A stretch of DNA of 64,000 nt, from positions 70,888 through 134,887 of the forward strand of contig JASBVM010000001.1 of assembly GCA_029961055.1 (NCBI GenBank), in the 5' to 3' direction. The translations under genes and the position numbers were made by a program. Positions 2,023 to 48,456 of the stretch are shown here, in pieces (position 1 is the first letter of the stretch; each line of letters starts with the position of its first letter). A model generated the notes under the pieces. It did not search any database. It saw only the letters and a list, made by a program, of their open reading frames with translations, and was not told where the DNA came from. Origin of the DNA: Bacillota bacterium (lineage in GTDB: Bacteria; Bacillota; Sulfobacillia; JAIMAT01).

Positions 2023-3183
2023 TTGCCCGCTGCACGGCTCCATCGCCACCCGTGGTCCGTGGCAAGGGAGGGTTGGCGGTCTCGCGTACCGGCCAAGGTG
2101 CGCCTTCGCGCCCGGGCCCTCCCGCGCCCCGAGCAGGTGGGGACCATCCTGGTGCCGGTCCTCTGCCCGCTGGGCGACACGCTCTTCGCCACGCCGGCTC
2201 TCCGCGCCCTTCGCCGGCGTTTCCCCGGCGCGCAGGTGACCGTCCTCGCCTGGTCGTCCAATGCCGAACTGCTGGCCGGGAACCCGGCCGTCGACCGCCT
2301 CTGGGAGGCGGAGGGCCCGATCGAGCTGCCCCGCTGGCTGGTCACCTGCCAGGAGGCCCGCTTCGACCTGGCGGTCGGCCTCTCCAACGTGGGCAGCTGG
2401 CTCGCCGCCTTCAGCGGGGCCCGCTGGCGGACGGGCTTCGCCTCGCAGAGCCTGGGGCTCCTGTACAACGTCCCGGTGCCCGACCGGCGCGACCTCCACG
2501 CCGTCGACTACGCGCTCCGCGTGGCGGCCGCCCTGGGTGCCGAGCCGCCGAGGGATCCGGCGCCCGAGGTCTACCCGTCGCCCGCCGAGCGGCGCTGGGC
2601 ACGGCGGTTCGAGCGCCGCTTCCGCCTGCCGGGCCGTCCCCTGGTGGCGATCCACCCGGGGGGACGCTTCTTTCCGCAGAAGAGGTGGCCGGCCACCTAC
2701 TTCGCCCGCCTGGCCTCCGAGCTGGAGAGGCGACGGGGGGCGCGCCTGCTGGTGGTGGGCGGCCCCGACGACGCCGAGGCCGGCGAAGCCATCCTGGACG
2801 CCCTTGCCGAACGCGGGAACGGCAGGAACCTGGCCGGCCGGATCGGGCTCCGGCGGACGGCCGCCCTGCTGGCCCGTGCCGACCTCTTCGTGGGCAACGA
2901 CTCGGCCCCGCTCCACCTGGCCTGGGCGATGGGGACGCCCACGCTCGCGCTCTTCGGCCCCACCGACCCGCGCAACTTCGCGCCGCGCGGGGAGCGCCAC
3001 CGGCTGCTGCAGGTGCCGATGAGCTGCGGCCCCTGCGTCCACTGGATGGGCGGTACCCTGGAGTACCTGGCGGCGCGCCGCTACCAGGAAGATGCGCCGG
3101 CGGAGTGCATGCTCCGCCTCACCCCGGAGAGGGTGCTGGCGGAGGCGGAGCGGCAGCTGGACCGCTGGGGGCGGAGAGGATGA
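2023..3183 (+). CDS. Glycosyltransferase family 9 (heptosyltransferase-like)
   Basis: A GT9/ADP-heptose:LPS heptosyltransferase-type enzyme of 386 residues. It has an N-terminal Rossmann-like half (TILVPVLCPLGDTLFATPAL) and a C-terminal nucleotide-sugar half with the GT9 marks AIHPGG, FVGNDSAPLHLAWAMG and ALFGPTDP. The TTG start sits behind a GGAGGGAGGAG purine run. An A/T-rich TAGAAT (1980-1985) may be a -10 box, but no matching -35 is visible. It overlaps the next gene by 4 nt (ATGA) and lies with a GT4 enzyme, a flippase-like protein and a heptose-kinase-like protein, so it probably builds a cell-surface glycan. The exact donor and acceptor cannot be read from the sequence. Confidence 0.85.
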   Translation: MPAARLHRHPWSVAREGWRSRVPAKVRLRARALPRPEQVGTILVPVLCPLGDTLFATPALRALRRRFPGAQVTVLAWSSNAELLAGNPAVDRLWEAEGPIELPRWLVTCQEARFDLAVGLSNVGSWLAAFSGARWRTGFASQSLGLLYNVPVPDRRDLHAVDYALRVAAALGAEPPRDPAPEVYPSPAERRWARRFERRFRLPGRPLVAIHPGGRFFPQKRWPATYFARLASELERRRGARLLVVGGPDDAEAGEAILDALAERGNGRNLAGRIGLRRTAALLARADLFVGNDSAPLHLAWAMGTPTLALFGPTDPRNFAPRGERHRLLQVPMSCGPCVHWMGGTLEYLAARRYQEDAPAECMLRLTPERVLAEAERQLDRWGRRG

Positions 3184-4349
3184 GCGGCATGCGCGTGGCC
3201 ATGTTCACGGACAGCTACACGCCGTACGTGAGCGGTGTGGTCCGCTCCATCCTGCTGCTCAAGCGCGAGCTGGAACGGATGGGCCACGAGGTGACGGTCT
3301 TCGCCCCCGACTATCCCGGCGTCTCGCCGGAGGAAGACCGCGCCCAGCGGGTGATCCGCCTCCCCTCGCTGCCCGCCCCGACCCAGCCGGACTTCCACGT
3401 GGCCATCCCCTGGGCGCCCGGCATCATGCGCCGCATGCGCCGGCTGGAGCTGGAGGTGGTCCACAGCCACACCCCCTTCGTCATGGGGGGCGTGGCCGCA
3501 GCGGCGGCGCGACGCTTCCGCCTGCCGCTGGTCTTCACGTACCACACGCGCTACGACCTCTACACGCACTACGCGCCCATCGACGTCCCGCTCACCCGCC
3601 GGGTGGTGGCCGAGTGGGCCACCTTCTACGCCAACTCGGCCGACCAGGTGATCGCGCCCTCCCCCTCGCTGGCCCGCTGGCTGGCCGAGCAGGGGGTGGG
3701 ATCGCCGGTCCGCACCATCCCCAGCGGCATCGACCTGGAGGCGCTCCGCGCGGGCGATCCGGAATGGCTTCCCGGGCGGATCGGCATCGCCCCGGGCACG
3801 CCCATCGTCCTCTACGCGGGGCGACTGGGGGCGGAGAAGAACCTCGACCTTCTCTTCCGCGCCTTCGCCGGCCTGGCGGAGGTGCGGCCGCAGGCGCACC
3901 TGGCCCTGGCGGGCGACGGCACCGAGCGCCGGCGCTTGGAGCGGTGGGCGGAGCAGCCCCCGCTGGCGGGGCGGGTCCACTTCCTCGGGACGCTGCCGCC
4001 GGAGGAGCTGCGCCACGCCTACCACGGCGCCACCTGTTTCGCCTTTCCCTCCCTCACGGAGACGCAGGGGCTGGTGCTGGCCGAGGCCATGGGCGCCGGG
4101 CTCCCGCCCGTGGCGGTGGACGCGCCGGCCAGCCGGGACACCATCCGGGACGGCGTCGACGGCCTGCTGGTGCCTGCGTCGGAGGAAGCGATGAAGGCGG
4201 CGCTGCTGCGCCTCCTCGACGATCCGCGGCTCCGCGCCCTCCTGGCCAGCGAGGCGCGCGCCCGCGCCGAACGCTTCTCCATCCGCCGGACGGCCTCGCT
4301 GGTCCTGGCCACCTACGAGGCAGCCCTGGCCGCCGTGCTCAAGCCGTGA
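3180..4349 (+). CDS. Glycosyltransferase family 4 (GT-B)
   Basis: A 389-residue GT4 enzyme. The N-terminal domain begins MRVAMFTDSYTPYVSGVVRS, typical of diacylglycerol/mannosyl glucosyltransferases. The C-terminal GT-B donor domain has VLYAGRLGAEKN and the E-x7-E-type motif in FPSLTETQGLVLAEAMGAGLP. Members of this subfamily transfer a sugar from a nucleotide or prenyl donor to lipid (for example diacylglycerol) or mannosides at the inner membrane. ATG with SD GGAGAGG; 4-nt overlaps with both neighbours show tight translational coupling with the GT9 gene and the membrane protein. The acceptor is unknown; glycolipid synthesis is the most likely role. Confidence 0.87.
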   Translation: MSGMRVAMFTDSYTPYVSGVVRSILLLKRELERMGHEVTVFAPDYPGVSPEEDRAQRVIRLPSLPAPTQPDFHVAIPWAPGIMRRMRRLELEVVHSHTPFVMGGVAAAAARRFRLPLVFTYHTRYDLYTHYAPIDVPLTRRVVAEWATFYANSADQVIAPSPSLARWLAEQGVGSPVRTIPSGIDLEALRAGDPEWLPGRIGIAPGTPIVLYAGRLGAEKNLDLLFRAFAGLAEVRPQAHLALAGDGTERRRLERWAEQPPLAGRVHFLGTLPPEELRHAYHGATCFAFPSLTETQGLVLAEAMGAGLPPVAVDAPASRDTIRDGVDGLLVPASEEAMKAALLRLLDDPRLRALLASEARARAERFSIRRTASLVLATYEAALAAVLKP

Positions 4350-5389
4350 GCGCCCGCGCCCTGCGCCGCGGCCTTCTCCTCTCCCTCGGCCTCAGCATCG
4401 CCGGGGTGGTGCTCCTCCTCGTGGTGGGTGGCGGCCGGCGGGCGCTGGAAGCGCTCTTCTACGTGGAGCCGGCCTGGTACCTGGCGGCCGTGGCGCTCAT
4501 CTTCCTCGCCTGGGGGCTCCGCACCTGGCGGATCACCGTCCTGGCCCGGGCGCTGGGCCATCCCATGCCGGTCGGTCGCTCATGGACCTTCTACCTGGCG
4601 AGCGTCTTCGTCTCCCACGTCACCCCCAGCAGCTCGGGCGGGCTGCCGGCCCTCCTGGCGCTGATCATCCGGGACGGGATGCCGGCCGGCCGCGCCTCCG
4701 CCCTGGTCTTCCTGGAGTCGACGCTGACCGCGCTCGTCTTCGCGGTGGCCGCGCCGCTCCTGATCCTGGTCGGCCCCGTGGCGCACCTCGCCCCCGACCT
4801 GCGCGCCGGCCTGGAGACGCTGGTCACCGCCTTCATCGGCGTGGCGCTGCTGCTCCTCGCCCTCCTCCTCTGGCCCGCGGCCCTGGGCGGCGCCTTCCTC
4901 CGGCTGGTCGTCAACCGGCCGCTCCTCCGCCTCCTGGGGCGCGAGCGGGGCGCCCGCTGGAACCGGGGGGTGCGCCGGGAGGTCCGGCGCTTCACCGTGG
5001 CCATGCGCTGGATGCTCGTGCGCCGCTGGCCGGCCCTCCTGGTCACGGTCCTGCTCAGCCTGCTCTACTGGGCGGTCTACCTGGCCATCCTTCCGGCGCT
5101 GATGGCAGGGCTGGGTGTAAGATTCACCTGGTATGCGCCCTTGGCGGTCCAGCTCCTGTTCAACCTGGTCCAGCCCGCGATTCCGACGCCGGGAGGAAGT
5201 GGTGGCGCGGAGATCCTCTTCGCCTACCTCCTCCGGGGGCTGGTTCCGGCGGAGCTGGTCAGCCCGCTGGTGCTCCTCTGGCGATCGGTCACCTTTTACC
5301 TGAGCGTGGCGGTGGGCGGCGGCGCAGCCATCCTGACGCTGCGGCCGTTCTTCTCGGGGCGCCGGCTGGCCGGCCACCGGGTGCGCTGA
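4346..5389 (+). CDS. Flippase-like integral membrane protein (LPG synthase TM / UPF0104 family)
   Basis: A 347-residue polytopic protein with about eight hydrophobic segments and the family signature SHVTPSSSGGLPALLALIIRDG in the second/third helix region plus PTPGGSGGAEILFAYLLRG near the C-terminus. This is the membrane domain of lysylphosphatidylglycerol synthases (AglD/MprF-like) without the catalytic aminoacyl domain. Stand-alone members are proposed to move lipids or glycolipids across the membrane. The GTG start overlaps the preceding stop by 4 nt. Its position behind two glycosyltransferases suggests it handles the lipid-linked product they make; that link is inference. Confidence 0.8.
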   Translation: MSARALRRGLLLSLGLSIAGVVLLLVVGGGRRALEALFYVEPAWYLAAVALIFLAWGLRTWRITVLARALGHPMPVGRSWTFYLASVFVSHVTPSSSGGLPALLALIIRDGMPAGRASALVFLESTLTALVFAVAAPLLILVGPVAHLAPDLRAGLETLVTAFIGVALLLLALLLWPAALGGAFLRLVVNRPLLRLLGRERGARWNRGVRREVRRFTVAMRWMLVRRWPALLVTVLLSLLYWAVYLAILPALMAGLGVRFTWYAPLAVQLLFNLVQPAIPTPGGSGGAEILFAYLLRGLVPAELVSPLVLLWRSVTFYLSVAVGGGAAILTLRPFFSGRRLAGHRVR

Positions 5390-43744: not shown

Positions 43745-45952
43745 GTGCCGACCATCCTGGGAGTGGCGATCAGCGACCCGAGCGACTTCGCGCCCCTCCG
43801 GGAACGGGCCAGCACCTACCTGGGACGCGAGGACGTGGAGCGCCTCGAGGCGGCCTTCCGTTTCGCCAGCGAGGCGCATCGGGGGCAGTTCCGCGCCTCG
43901 GGGGAGCCTTACATCATCCACCCCCTCTCGGTGGCCGGCATCCTGGCCGACCTCGAGCTGGACGCGGCCACGCTCGAGGCGGCGCTCCTCCACGACGTGG
44001 TGGAGGATACCGGCGTCACCCTGGCCCAGCTGGAGAGCGCCTTCGACCCGGAGGTGGCGCTTCTGGTGGACGGCGTCACCAAGCTGGGCCAGATCAAGTA
44101 CCGGAGCCGGGTCGAGGAGCAGGCCGAGAACCTGCGCAAGATGTTCCTGGCCATGGCCAAGGACATCCGGGTGATCCTGATCAAGCTGGCCGACCGGCTG
44201 CACAACATGCGCACGCTGGAGTACCTGCCACCCGAGAAGCGGCGGGATATCGCCCAGGAGACGCTGGACATCTTCGCCCCCCTGGCGCACCGCCTGGGGA
44301 TCTACCGCATCAAGTGGGAGCTGGAGGACCTCGCCTTCCGCTTCCTGGAGCCCGACGTCTACCGGGATCTGGCGCGGCGCATCCCCAAGCGGCGGGCGGA
44401 GCGGGAGGGTTTCGCCGAGCAGGTGATGGAGGCGCTCCGGCCGCGGCTGGCCGAGGTGGGCATCAAGGCGGAGCTGCAGGGGCGTGCCAAGCACTTCTAC
44501 AGCATCTACCAGAAGATGTACCACCAGGGGAAGGACCTGAACGAGATCTACGACCTGGTGGGCGTCCGCGTCATCGTCGACTCGGTCCGCGACTGCTACG
44601 GGGCCCTGGGCGTGGTCCACACCCTCTGGAGGCCGATCCCGGGCCGGTTCAAGGATTACATCGCCACCCCCAAGCCGAACATGTACCAGTCGCTCCACAC
44701 CACGGTGGTCGGCCCGCAGGGCGAGCCCTTCGAGATCCAGATCCGGACCTGGGAGATGCACCGGACGGCCGAGGTCGGCATCGCCGCCCACTGGAGGTAC
44801 AAGGAAGGCCGTACGGACCCCAAGCTCGACCAGAAGCTCAACTGGCTCCGGGAGATCCTGGAGTGGCAGAAGGACCTGCGCGATCCCCGCGAGTTCATGG
44901 AGTCGCTCAAGATCGACATCTTCCCGGACGAGGTCTTCGTCTTCACCCCCAAGGGCGACGTGGTCCCTCTGCCGCGCGGGGCGACGCCCATCGACTTCGC
45001 CTACGCCATCCACACGGAGATCGGCCACCACTGCGTGGGCGCCAAGGTGAACGGCCACATCACGCCCCTCTCCTCGGCGCTGGAGACGGGCGACATCGTG
45101 GAGATCATCACCTCGAAGCAGAGCCCGGGGCCCAGCTCGGACTGGCTCGGCATCGTCAAGACGGCCAGCGCCCGGGCCAAGATCCGCCAGTGGTTCAAGC
45201 GGGAGCGGCGGGAGGAGAACCTGGCCCGCGGGCGCGAGATGCTGGAGCGGGAGGTCCACCGTCTGGGCGGCGACCCGGCCAGCTGGCTGGACCCGCAGCG
45301 GATGGAGGAGATCGCCCGCCGGCTCAACCTGCAGGGCGCGGACGACCTGCTGGTCTCGGTCGGCTACGGGGGCATCAGCGTCGCCCAGGTGCTGGGCCGC
45401 CTCCGCCAGCTGGAGGGGCGGGCGCGCCCGCCGGAACGGCCGGAGAGCGACGAGGCCGTCCTGGCGCGGCTGACCGAGTGGGGCGCCCCCTCCAACGGGG
45501 TGCGGGTGAAGGGCATCGACAACGTGCTCGTCCGCTTCCCGCACTGCTGCAACCCGGTGCCGGGGGAGCCGATCGTGGGGTACGTCACCCACGGGCGCGG
45601 CGTCTCCGTCCACCGCATGGACTGCCCCAACATCGCCCTGCGCCTCGCCCAGGAGCCGGATCGCCGGATCGAGGTCACCTGGGACAAGGTGGAGAGCGCC
45701 TACCTGCCGCGCAAGGTGGTGGTCACCGCCCTCGACCGGCCCGGGCTGCTCTCCGAGGTGGCCCAGGTGGTGGCGGCGAACCGGATCAACATCGTCAGCG
45801 CCCAGGTTCGACCGCTCCGCGGCCAGCGCTCCAGCATCGAGATGGTCCTGGAGGTGCGCAACCGCCAGCAGCTGGAGAACGTGCTCCGCCAGATGCAGCG
45901 CGTGCGCGACGTGCTGGCGGCCGACGTGGCGGGCGCGGCGGGGCGCGCCTGA
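43745..45952 (+). CDS. rel: Bifunctional (p)ppGpp synthetase/hydrolase Rel
   Basis: 735 residues, the stringent-response enzyme. Hydrolase domain: HRGQFRASGEPYIIHP and LLHDVVEDTGVT (HD). Synthetase domain: YSIYQKMYHQGKDL, VGVRVIVDSVRDCYGALGVVH, RFKDYIATPKPNMYQSLHTT (RFKD of bifunctional Rels). Then TGS (FVFTPKGDVVPLP), a helical/ZFD region with the Cys pair FPHCCNPVPGEPI, and ACT at the C-terminus. I prefer GTG behind CGGAG; an ATG at 43694 with GAAAGG is the alternative and adds 17 residues. TATATT at 43674 may be the -10 box. dtd follows 2 nt later. Confidence 0.95.
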   Translation: MPTILGVAISDPSDFAPLRERASTYLGREDVERLEAAFRFASEAHRGQFRASGEPYIIHPLSVAGILADLELDAATLEAALLHDVVEDTGVTLAQLESAFDPEVALLVDGVTKLGQIKYRSRVEEQAENLRKMFLAMAKDIRVILIKLADRLHNMRTLEYLPPEKRRDIAQETLDIFAPLAHRLGIYRIKWELEDLAFRFLEPDVYRDLARRIPKRRAEREGFAEQVMEALRPRLAEVGIKAELQGRAKHFYSIYQKMYHQGKDLNEIYDLVGVRVIVDSVRDCYGALGVVHTLWRPIPGRFKDYIATPKPNMYQSLHTTVVGPQGEPFEIQIRTWEMHRTAEVGIAAHWRYKEGRTDPKLDQKLNWLREILEWQKDLRDPREFMESLKIDIFPDEVFVFTPKGDVVPLPRGATPIDFAYAIHTEIGHHCVGAKVNGHITPLSSALETGDIVEIITSKQSPGPSSDWLGIVKTASARAKIRQWFKRERREENLARGREMLEREVHRLGGDPASWLDPQRMEEIARRLNLQGADDLLVSVGYGGISVAQVLGRLRQLEGRARPPERPESDEAVLARLTEWGAPSNGVRVKGIDNVLVRFPHCCNPVPGEPIVGYVTHGRGVSVHRMDCPNIALRLAQEPDRRIEVTWDKVESAYLPRKVVVTALDRPGLLSEVAQVVAANRINIVSAQVRPLRGQRSSIEMVLEVRNRQQLENVLRQMQRVRDVLAADVAGAAGRA

Positions 45953-45954
45953 GC

Positions 45955-46404
45955 GTGCGGGCGGTGGTCCAGCGGGTCTCGCGCGCCGAGGTCCGCGTGG
46001 CGGGTGAACGGGTGGGCGCCATCGGGCGGGGCTTCCTGGTGCTGGTGGGCGTCCGGCGCGGCGACGGCAGCCGCGAGGCCGCCTACATGGCCGACAAGAT
46101 CCTCCACCTGCGCATCTTCGAGGACGAGGCGGGCCGGCTCAACCGCTCCATCCTGGAGAGCGGCGGCGCGCTCCTGGTCGTCTCCCAGTTCACCCTCTAC
46201 GGCGACGCGCGCCACGGCCGGCGGCCCAGCTTCACCGAGGCGGCCCCGGCCGAGGAGGCGGCGCCGGTCTTCCAGGAGCTGGTCGACCGGCTGGCGGCCA
46301 GCGGCCTGGAGGTGGCCACGGGCCGCTACCAGGCGGAGATGAGCGTCGAGCTGGTCAACGAAGGACCCGTCACGCTGCTCCTCGACAGCGACCGTCGCTT
46401 CTGA
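45955..46404 (+). CDS. dtd: D-aminoacyl-tRNA deacylase (Dtd)
   Basis: 149 residues; hydrolyses D-amino acids wrongly attached to tRNA. Both active-site motifs are present: SQFTLYGD (SQxTL) and NEGPVT (NxGPVT) near the C-terminus. GTG start two nt after the rel stop, the rel-dtd pairing common in Firmicutes. The stop codon lies six nt from the right end of a decayed IS element. Confidence 0.95.
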   Translation: MRAVVQRVSRAEVRVAGERVGAIGRGFLVLVGVRRGDGSREAAYMADKILHLRIFEDEAGRLNRSILESGGALLVVSQFTLYGDARHGRRPSFTEAAPAEEAAPVFQELVDRLAASGLEVATGRYQAEMSVELVNEGPVTLLLDSDRRF

Positions 46405-46410
46405 GCCGTT

Positions 46411-46438
46411 GCCGAGAACATCGAAATCTGTTCCCGGC
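46411..46438 (-). mobile_element. Right-end hairpin of a decayed IS200/IS605-family element
   Basis: On the minus strand GCCGGGAACA and TGTTCTCGGC form a 10-bp stem (one G-U) around GATTTCGA. It lies just past the tnpB stop, where IS605-family right ends carry their subterminal palindrome and where omega RNAs end. Confidence 0.65.
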
Positions 46439-46469
46439 ATCCATCCGTTGCCGGGCGGAGGCGCCGGTC

Positions 46470-46775
46470 TTACGCGCTTTCGCGCCGCCGGCTTCCCGCT
46501 TCCTCCGGGACCGCCTGCATGCCGCCGAAGGCGGCTTCAGGTCTTACACCCCGTCCACGGGCGTTTCGCGTCTCCGGGCCACTCCCGGCGACGGCGGCCA
46601 AAAGCGCCGCGAGGTTTCGCGCCGCGTTCTCGTCCCGGTCCAGGACGAGACCGCAGGCATCGCACCGGAACGTCCGCTCCCCCAGGGGCAGGTCCCCTTT
46701 CACTTCCCCGCAGCGGGAGCACGTCTTGCTGCTCGGGTAGAACGTGTTCGCGGTCTCCAGGCGCGACCCGTAGTT
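46470..46775 (-). pseudogene. tnpB: 3' fragment of tnpB (IS200/IS605 family)
   Basis: The last 101 codons of a TnpB/OrfB nuclease: NYGSRLETANTFYPSSKTCS, the zinc ribbon CSRCG...CDACG, the final RuvC catalytic Asp in LVLDRDENAARNL, and the usual tail with PETRNARG and VRP down to the native stop. Upstream of codon 1 here the reading frame becomes unrelated sequence, so the N-terminal three quarters are deleted. The frame has no internal stops, so loss looks recent or is a single deletion. No tnpA is near. The last 60 bases plus the right-end hairpin may still encode the omega-RNA scaffold. Confidence 0.85.
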
Positions 46776-46904
46776 GCAAACCCCTTTTGCGCCACCGGAC
46801 CTTCCTCTCCCGGGGCTCGCCGGCGCCCGGGTGGGACAGGCGTCCCCGCGGCATAGCGGGTCGAGGGGACGAATATGTTCCGTGAGCGGAAGGGGGGTCA
46901 AGTC
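46776..46904. other. Leader between the IS remnant and the SH3b lipoprotein gene
   Basis: No gene seen. It contains a hairpin CGTCCCC-n16-GGGGACG (46842-46871), an A/T-rich GAATATG and a short hairpin TTCCG-TGAG-CGGAA right before the SD GGGGGG of the lipoprotein gene. The left breakpoint of the IS deletion is near 46776-46790. Confidence 0.5.
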
Positions 46905-47384
46905 ATGGCGGGAGGCAGGGCAGGGGCGGCCCGCCGCGGGGCGCCGGTGGCGGTCCTGGCCGGCCTGGCGCTGCTGCTGGCCGGCTGCGGCGGAGGCGGC
47001 AGCGCCTCCAACCAGCAGGCGACCGTGGACCAGCTCGCCCAGCGGGTGACGCACCTGGAGCAGCAGGTGGCCGACCTGGAGGCGGCGGTGGTCGCCTCGG
47101 CGCCCGCGCCGGGGAGCGACACCTCGGGGACCGGGGGCTCCCAGGCGACCGGCTCGCAGAGCAGCTCCGGACGGAGCGCCGCCATGGAGGCGACGGTCAC
47201 CACCGACTACCTGAACGTGCGCTCGGATCCCGACGAGAACGCCACCCGGGTCGGGCAGCTGCGGAAGGGGACCGTGGTGGAGGTCCTGGGGCAGAAGAAC
47301 GGCTGGTCGCACGTGGTGCTCCAGCAGGGGAGCACCGTCGTGGTCGACGGCTGGGTGACCAGCGAGTACCTGGAGCCCCATTGA
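46905..47384 (+). CDS. SH3b-domain lipoprotein
   Basis: 159 residues. A basic N-terminus, hydrophobic stretch VAVLAGLALLLAGC with lipobox LAGC, then a short coiled coil (VDQLAQRVTHLEQQVADLEA), a Ser/Gly linker and a C-terminal SH3_3 domain (TTDYLNVRSDPDENATRVGQ, GWSHVVL, VDGWVTSEYL). SH3b domains bind peptidoglycan peptides, so it is probably a membrane-anchored wall-binding protein. ATG with GGGGGG SD. It converges on the SleB-like hydrolase gene with a shared terminator. Confidence 0.88.
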   Translation: MAGGRAGAARRGAPVAVLAGLALLLAGCGGGGSASNQQATVDQLAQRVTHLEQQVADLEAAVVASAPAPGSDTSGTGGSQATGSQSSSGRSAAMEATVTTDYLNVRSDPDENATRVGQLRKGTVVEVLGQKNGWSHVVLQQGSTVVVDGWVTSEYLEPH

Positions 47385-47421
47385 CGCGGCAGGAAGGGGG
47401 CGCCCGCGGGAGCGCGGCGGA

Positions 47422-47458
47422 GCGAGCGAGGGAGCGGCCCGGCCGCTCCCTCGCTCGC
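47422..47458. terminator. Bidirectional terminator, 18-bp perfect inverted repeat
   Basis: GCGAGCGAGGGAGCGGCC and GGCCGCTCCCTCGCTCGC flank a single C. It lies between two convergent genes ending at 47384 and 47470. No T tract on either side. Confidence 0.75.
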
Positions 47459-47469
47459 CGCTCTCCGGT

Positions 47470-48456
47470 TCACCGCGGCCGGTAGAAGACCATGCCGCCG
47501 CTCTGCAGGGTGAGCGTGTAGCGGGCGGGGTTCTTCCACGCCGCCGGCACCGAGGCCAGGTCGGTGAAGTAGAGCGCGCCGCCGGTGGGATCCTCGCCGC
47601 GCAACGCGCGCAGCACCGCCTCGCGGACGCTGGGCATCAGCGGTGTCCGCAGGTAGGCGCCGGTCCGCACCACCGTGAACTGGCCGGGCGCCAGGAGGAC
47701 GTCGGCCAGGCTCCGTCCCCAGCCGGCGCGGACGCGGTTGACGATCACCGCGGCCACGGCCACCTGGGTCTCCGTGGGCGCGCCATACGCCTCGGCGTTG
47801 ACCACGTGGACCAGCAGGTCGAGCTGCCGGGCGTCGACATCGGGGAGGATCAGGGCGGAGGCCGACTGGACCGGGCTGCTCTGCACCGCGGTGGTGCCGG
47901 CGGCGGTGGACTGCCCGGTCGCGGCGTTCCGGGCCTCGGGCTCGGCCACCACCTGGGCCGCGGACCAGCGGACCACCGCGCGGCGAAGCTGCGCGTCCCA
48001 GGTGACCTGCCCGCCCAGACCGCGGAAGAGCGCGGCCACCGGAACCAGCAGCTGGTCGGTCATCAGGGCGGCCGGTGCGTCGACCCGGCGGCCGTCGATG
48101 TCCAGGCCTGGCTGACCGGCCCGCGCCGTCACCACCGCGGCCGGCTGGCTCAGGAAGCCCCGCCCGGTCCGGCTGGCGGGATCGAAGTAATAGCGGCCGG
48201 CGAACGCCTCGACCAACTCATCGAAGGGTGCAAAGAGCACTCCGCTTGCGATGCGGATTTCGCTGAGGTCGAGGAGCTCGCCGTTGACGGCCACCGTCGG
48301 CGGCCCCTGGGCGACCTGGCTGGCGGCTGCGCTGGCGGTGGCCGGAACGCCCAGAAGGAGCGCCGCCACCAGCGCACCCGCAGCCAGACGGCTGCCGGGG
48401 GCCGGCCTCTTCGTCTGCTCGGGCAAGAACATCCCCCCTCGTGCAGGCATGCGCAT
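47470..48456 (-). CDS. Secreted cell-wall hydrolase: copper-amine-oxidase-like domain plus SleB-type Hydrolase_2
   Basis: Up to 328 residues. A signal peptide (LAAGALVAALLLGVPATASA) leads to a copper-amine-oxidase N-terminal-like repeat region (VAVNGELLDLSEIRIASGVL, QVTWDAQLRRAVV), then a SleB/CwlJ domain with the catalytic Glu in VVNAEAYGA, VAAVIVNRV, APGQFTVV and the hallmark DPTGGALYF. SleB-type enzymes are lytic transglycosylases of spore cortex, which supports an endospore-forming ancestry. The start is uncertain: ATG 48456 has no SD, while GAGGGGGG suits a TTG at 48426. Confidence 0.88.
   Translation of the reverse strand: MRMPARGGMFLPEQTKRPAPGSRLAAGALVAALLLGVPATASAAASQVAQGPPTVAVNGELLDLSEIRIASGVLFAPFDELVEAFAGRYYFDPASRTGRGFLSQPAAVVTARAGQPGLDIDGRRVDAPAALMTDQLLVPVAALFRGLGGQVTWDAQLRRAVVRWSAAQVVAEPEARNAATGQSTAAGTTAVQSSPVQSASALILPDVDARQLDLLVHVVNAEAYGAPTETQVAVAAVIVNRVRAGWGRSLADVLLAPGQFTVVRTGAYLRTPLMPSVREAVLRALRGEDPTGGALYFTDLASVPAAWKNPARYTLTLQSGGMVFYRPR

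Follow-up and report, generated by a model that had tools for sequence, protein, structure and literature searches.

The gap between dtd and an SH3-domain lipoprotein gene in the window, the 64-kb stretch of DNA that was analysed, is occupied by what we consider, with a probability of about 0.88, a dead, internally deleted insertion sequence of the IS607 family (Table 1). A full-length element of ~1.95 kb, coding for a serine-recombinase TnpA and for TnpB, inserted at GG one base beyond the dtd stop codon. Later, a deletion of ~1.57 kb took all of tnpA, three quarters of tnpB and the left end save ~12 nt. The scaffold of the guide RNA (omegaRNA) probably survived owing to its place at the end spared by the deletion and to the recency of the event. 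The remnant is now most likely inert and drifting, in an assembly that offers no TnpB to process, bind or use the scaffold.

Table 1. Features of the remnant and its surroundings (positions in the window).
Feature	Positions	Strand	Remarks
Whole remnant, internally deleted IS607-family element	46406..46783	(-)	378 bp, counting the GG core at either end
Left-end remnant GGGTTTGCAACT	46772..46783	(-)	~12 nt of the element start including the GG crossover core
tnpB 3' fragment, 100 C-terminal aa + stop	46470..46772	(-)	No internal stops
Rfam RF03015 'Transposase-2' RNA, core of omegaRNA/reRNA scaffold	46436..46502	(-)	Spans the tnpB stop
Terminal right-end hairpin	46410..46439	(-)	11 pairs including one G-U; covaries among relatives
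GG crossover dinucleotide, right element edge	46406..46407	(-)	Divergence point of relatives; GG rule (PMC6188088)
Predicted guide CTCAGAAGCGACGGTCGCTG	46386..46405	(-)	Antisense to dtd 3' end and stop; position by family rule (PMC10711439)
dtd, D-Tyr-tRNA deacylase	45952..46404	(+)	Intact; 1 bp separates its stop codon from the element

Family, boundaries and age of the remnant

A DNA search found close copies of the remnant in two congeners, plus further relatives. Full-length elements with the same right end, a comparison that an earlier note on this DNA had suggested, do exist and measure ~1950 bp (L035, reverse complement, 3070-5019; L036, 840-2789). The intact relatives, two copies in congener G002 and one in G003, code for a serine recombinase of 187 aa and, after it, for TnpB. 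The recombinase matched PF00239 and the NCBIfam model NF033518 transpos_IS607 (203 bits, cut-off 110), and TnpB matched NF038280 IS607_TnpB (522.6 bits, cut-off 350) while remaining below the cut-off of the IS200_TnpB model (254.8 bits vs 425). Since the TnpA and TnpB of the relatives pass the IS607 models and fail the IS200/IS605 TnpB model, the element was assigned to IS607. The IS200/IS605 assignment made in the earlier note had to be abandoned, as the relatives carry a serine recombinase and not a Y1 (HUH) enzyme.

IS607 elements insert at GG without target duplication (PMC6188088). At this locus GG is found at both edges of the element, the exact crossover base being ambiguous within a G run, and the flanks, once joined, resemble the element-free gap of congener G001 with no duplication. 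Both observations fit the IS607 mechanism. The same dtd-SH3 gap is free of the element in G001 and G002, indicating that the element was inserted into it. The TnpA and TnpB types that define the family are present in the full-length relatives, and the window copy has lost its own tnpA and a complete tnpB; it is the remnant of an IS607 member and not a working member.

The boundaries were set by matching the right end to the relatives up to ...CAACGG and the left end to L035. More than 12 relatives part company immediately past ...AACGG, which sets the right edge at 46406, and the left edge lies at about 46783. The earlier note had the locus right, although it put the right edge at 46411 and missed the 12-nt left-end remnant. 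This sequence, GGGTTTGCAACT, matches the L035 left end exactly, has a single occurrence in the window, and abuts tnpB directly with a 1-nt overlap, the T at 46772. Conservation of the left end extends to L037 and, less closely, to L036; the left end of the G002 element begins GGGTTTGCAACTGTTGG.

The tnpB fragment matches Pfam PF07282 (E=1.5e-15), its product is 98, 89 and 80% identical to those of relatives, and its CxxC...CxxC zinc ribbon and RuvC-III DRDEN (DRDENAARN) motif are intact, while RuvC-I, RuvC-II and the N-terminal regions are deleted. A C-terminus free of stops and the loss of the first three quarters of the protein had both been read correctly from the DNA alone. The attribution to decay was not borne out: about 12 nt of left end, with the GG core, are fused straight to tnpB codon ~325, so that what is retained is this left end plus a right part of 367 nt (one T in common), with a single ~1.57 kb deletion between them. 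This shape is that of an internal deletion rather than of gradual decay, both ends lying at element boundaries. A 303-aa minus-strand open reading frame, running antisense through the SH3 gene, was considered fortuitous.

The window and G001 copies are identical throughout the upstream coding part and differ at few places in the right end, whereas the dtd genes of the two genomes are only 85% identical; the copies are therefore much younger than the split between the two genomes. In so young a remnant, a frame without stops is expected in the absence of selection. The comparison of the copies thus shows the open tnpB frame, which had been taken as preserved, to reflect a recent deletion and not preservation. 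In G001 (L034, contig C48, reverse complement ~8478), the tnpB copy directly adjoins a truncated ligA, of which the 5' portion remains. The adenylation domain of NAD ligase was matched nowhere else in G001, and not at all in the genome of the window, which suggests a contig chimera and assembly gaps rather than a real loss of ligA. With a possible chimera at this junction, the truncation of the G001 copy is uncertain.

The right-end scaffold and its position at dtd

Over its full length, the RF03015 model matched the right end with 66 bits (E=5e-11; gathering score 42.7). In an alignment of 15 sequences, 13 of them distinct, 94% of the cells in a five-helix scaffold are paired, falling to 33-40% in slid controls. 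Among the 13 distinct sequences, 13 of the 31 scaffold pairs are altered on both sides, a figure matched by 0 of 500 shuffles. The covarying pairs and the collapse of the slid controls point to a real scaffold whose structure is conserved. Both the sequence and the secondary structure conserved here are those of an omegaRNA/reRNA scaffold (RF03015). An omegaRNA scaffold overlapping the 3' end of tnpB, in line with the earlier note, is thus supported by covariance match and covarying pairs alike, and the hairpin that it described past the tnpB stop proved real, with 11 pairs in place of a 10-bp stem. The window copy keeps 30 of the 31 scaffold pairs; a change specific to it, at 46444, turns a C-G pair into C-A. 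Compared with G001, G002 and G003, the variable scaffold hairpin at 46517-46537 is longer by an in-frame insertion of 12 nt, which makes a perfect GCCGCC/GGCGGC stem. The origin of RF03015 did not turn up in literature searches.

The guide had been placed in the last dtd codons, and the position predicted here agrees, covering the dtd stop and last codons in antisense. The first 16 nt of the predicted guide match the genome exactly only at their own locus. In ISXfa1, another IS607 element, the scaffold takes in the base that flanks the right end (PMC10711439), so the exact first base of the guide is an inferred one.

As the remnant begins 1 bp past the dtd stop, a minus-strand transcript that ran on past its right end would read dtd in antisense. 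Cis regulation of dtd or of the downstream SH3 gene, by such an antisense RNA to the 3' end of dtd or by hairpins in the dtd transcript, was considered and is judged very unlikely. No terminator-like site for dtd and no T tract were found at the remnant, and a role as dtd terminator was rejected on the lack of a T tract. Moreover, a conserved block of its own upstream of the SH3 gene is retained on the far side of the insertion, and the dtd-SH3 gap of the congeners lacks the element. The block (46840-46885, GGCATAG...GGACGAATATGTTCCGTGAGCG) is conserved in this genome, G001 and G002, is possibly a promoter or regulatory site of the SH3 gene, and has the remnant upstream of it. The sole promoter-like site directed at the remnant, 46901-46872, falls in a conserved stretch that is also present in gaps free of the element. 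Farther on, a long, G+C-rich palindrome without a T tract (47384-47470), between the convergent SH3 and cell-wall hydrolase genes, is probably a bidirectional transcription barrier.

Partners in the genome and solitary scaffolds in the class

The assembly (2.28 Mb in 54 contigs) is 96% complete, so that its gaps could conceal a full copy. In it TnpA has no match, the remnant is the only match to the TNB domain, and a full TnpB query returned only fragments, at contigs C17 and C27, with no other usable TnpB. These searches showed the absence of TnpA and TnpB from the assembly. A second internally deleted IS607 copy is present in the same genome (L020, L038; C17, 111144-111458), in which TnpB residues 2-67 are fused to 388-421 and the terminal hairpin is missing. 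With the remnant DNA as query, one copy of the deleted form described here was found in the genome.

Both boundaries and both GG cores are retained, as they would be in a non-autonomous (miniature) derivative moved by TnpA in trans. We give this very little credence and rejected a mobile miniature element, for there is no second copy of the form, the same junction has so far not been seen elsewhere, the assembly has no TnpA, and the ~12 nt of left end compare poorly with the requirement of IS1535 TnpA for left-end positions ~20-69 (PMC6188088). By analogy with IS1535, the remaining left end would have no TnpA binding region.

The survey of solitary scaffolds took in 154 genomes from the class; RF03015 is present in 18 of them. 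Among the 54 scaffold loci above the cut-off, TnpB is full and uninterrupted at 21, full-length with a frameshift or stop at 10, and truncated or absent at 23, one of the latter (L198) being interrupted by the end of its contig. Scores are lower at truncated loci (median 62.9 bits) than at intact loci (73.1 bits; p=0.0025), copies within a genome not being independent. A preference for retaining the omegaRNA end, apparent in the raw counts (18 vs 6), was rejected: the genomes had been selected for having the RNA, and in multi-copy genomes taken alone, 5'-only and 3'-only fragments (5 vs 7-8, p=0.58-0.77) show no significant bias toward the 3' end. Solitary right ends this frequent are ordinary debris of an active family. 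RAGATH-18 RNAs, too, adjoin an IS607 TnpB in only 64% of cases (PMC11061315). In G002, a solitary 3' scaffold end lies just past the stop of an aldo-keto-reductase-like gene (L035, 3695-3798), with an intact copy ~1.2 kb off in opposite orientation.

The dead-element reading has points against it: the scaffold keeps 30 of 31 pairs, the 12-nt hairpin insertion is in frame, and the assembly is 96% complete. The first of these, together with an intact, covarying terminal hairpin, would also suit an omegaRNA acting in trans, which could arm another or incoming IS607 TnpB, guarding the dtd site, or compete with its omegaRNA; near-identical elements do circulate among the congeners (that of G001, with 98% protein identity, and intact ones in G002 and G003). 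We hold this to be very unlikely. This genome has TnpB fragments only, and a decoy or regulatory RNA for other TnpB copies, as the earlier note imagined, would find none usable in the assembly. No tnpA-side promoter is left, the only promoter-like site lies in conserved sequence also found where the element is absent, and multi-copy genomes give no significant 3'-end bias. Continued transcription of a solitary omegaRNA at dtd that has lost its nuclease, and that would arm or interfere with the TnpB of arriving IS607 elements, appears highly improbable.

Comparison with known systems

As a single case, a deleted IS607 copy is modest in importance. However, it illustrates that a match to an omegaRNA family need not mean a working RNA-guided system, uninterrupted TnpB adjoining only 21 of the 54 class loci, and the window offers a clean, recent example with element-free comparison loci and intact relatives. 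Solitary scaffolds, if they were transcribed, would provide natural substrates with which trans-guiding of IS607 TnpB, or competition for it, could be studied.

The remnant agrees with the IS607 family (IS607, IS1535, ISXfa1) in both ends, the GG core, the tnpB C-terminus and the omegaRNA scaffold, and differs in being without tnpA, three quarters of tnpB and nearly all of the left end. With the RF03015 Transposase-2 RNA it shares a full-length match and the usual site over the tnpB stop, but one scaffold pair is broken and no functional tnpB lies upstream. RAGATH-18 reRNAs (PMC11061315) are alike as IS607 TnpB guide RNAs at the right end whose copies are also found apart from TnpB; unlike them, the remnant matches another Rfam family and its scaffold overlaps coding sequence. 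IS200/IS605 elements with TnpB, such as ISDra2, resemble it in the TnpB C-terminus and in the logic of a right-end omegaRNA, whereas their own transposase is a Y1 enzyme acting on single strands, and the relatives of the remnant fail their TnpB cut-off.
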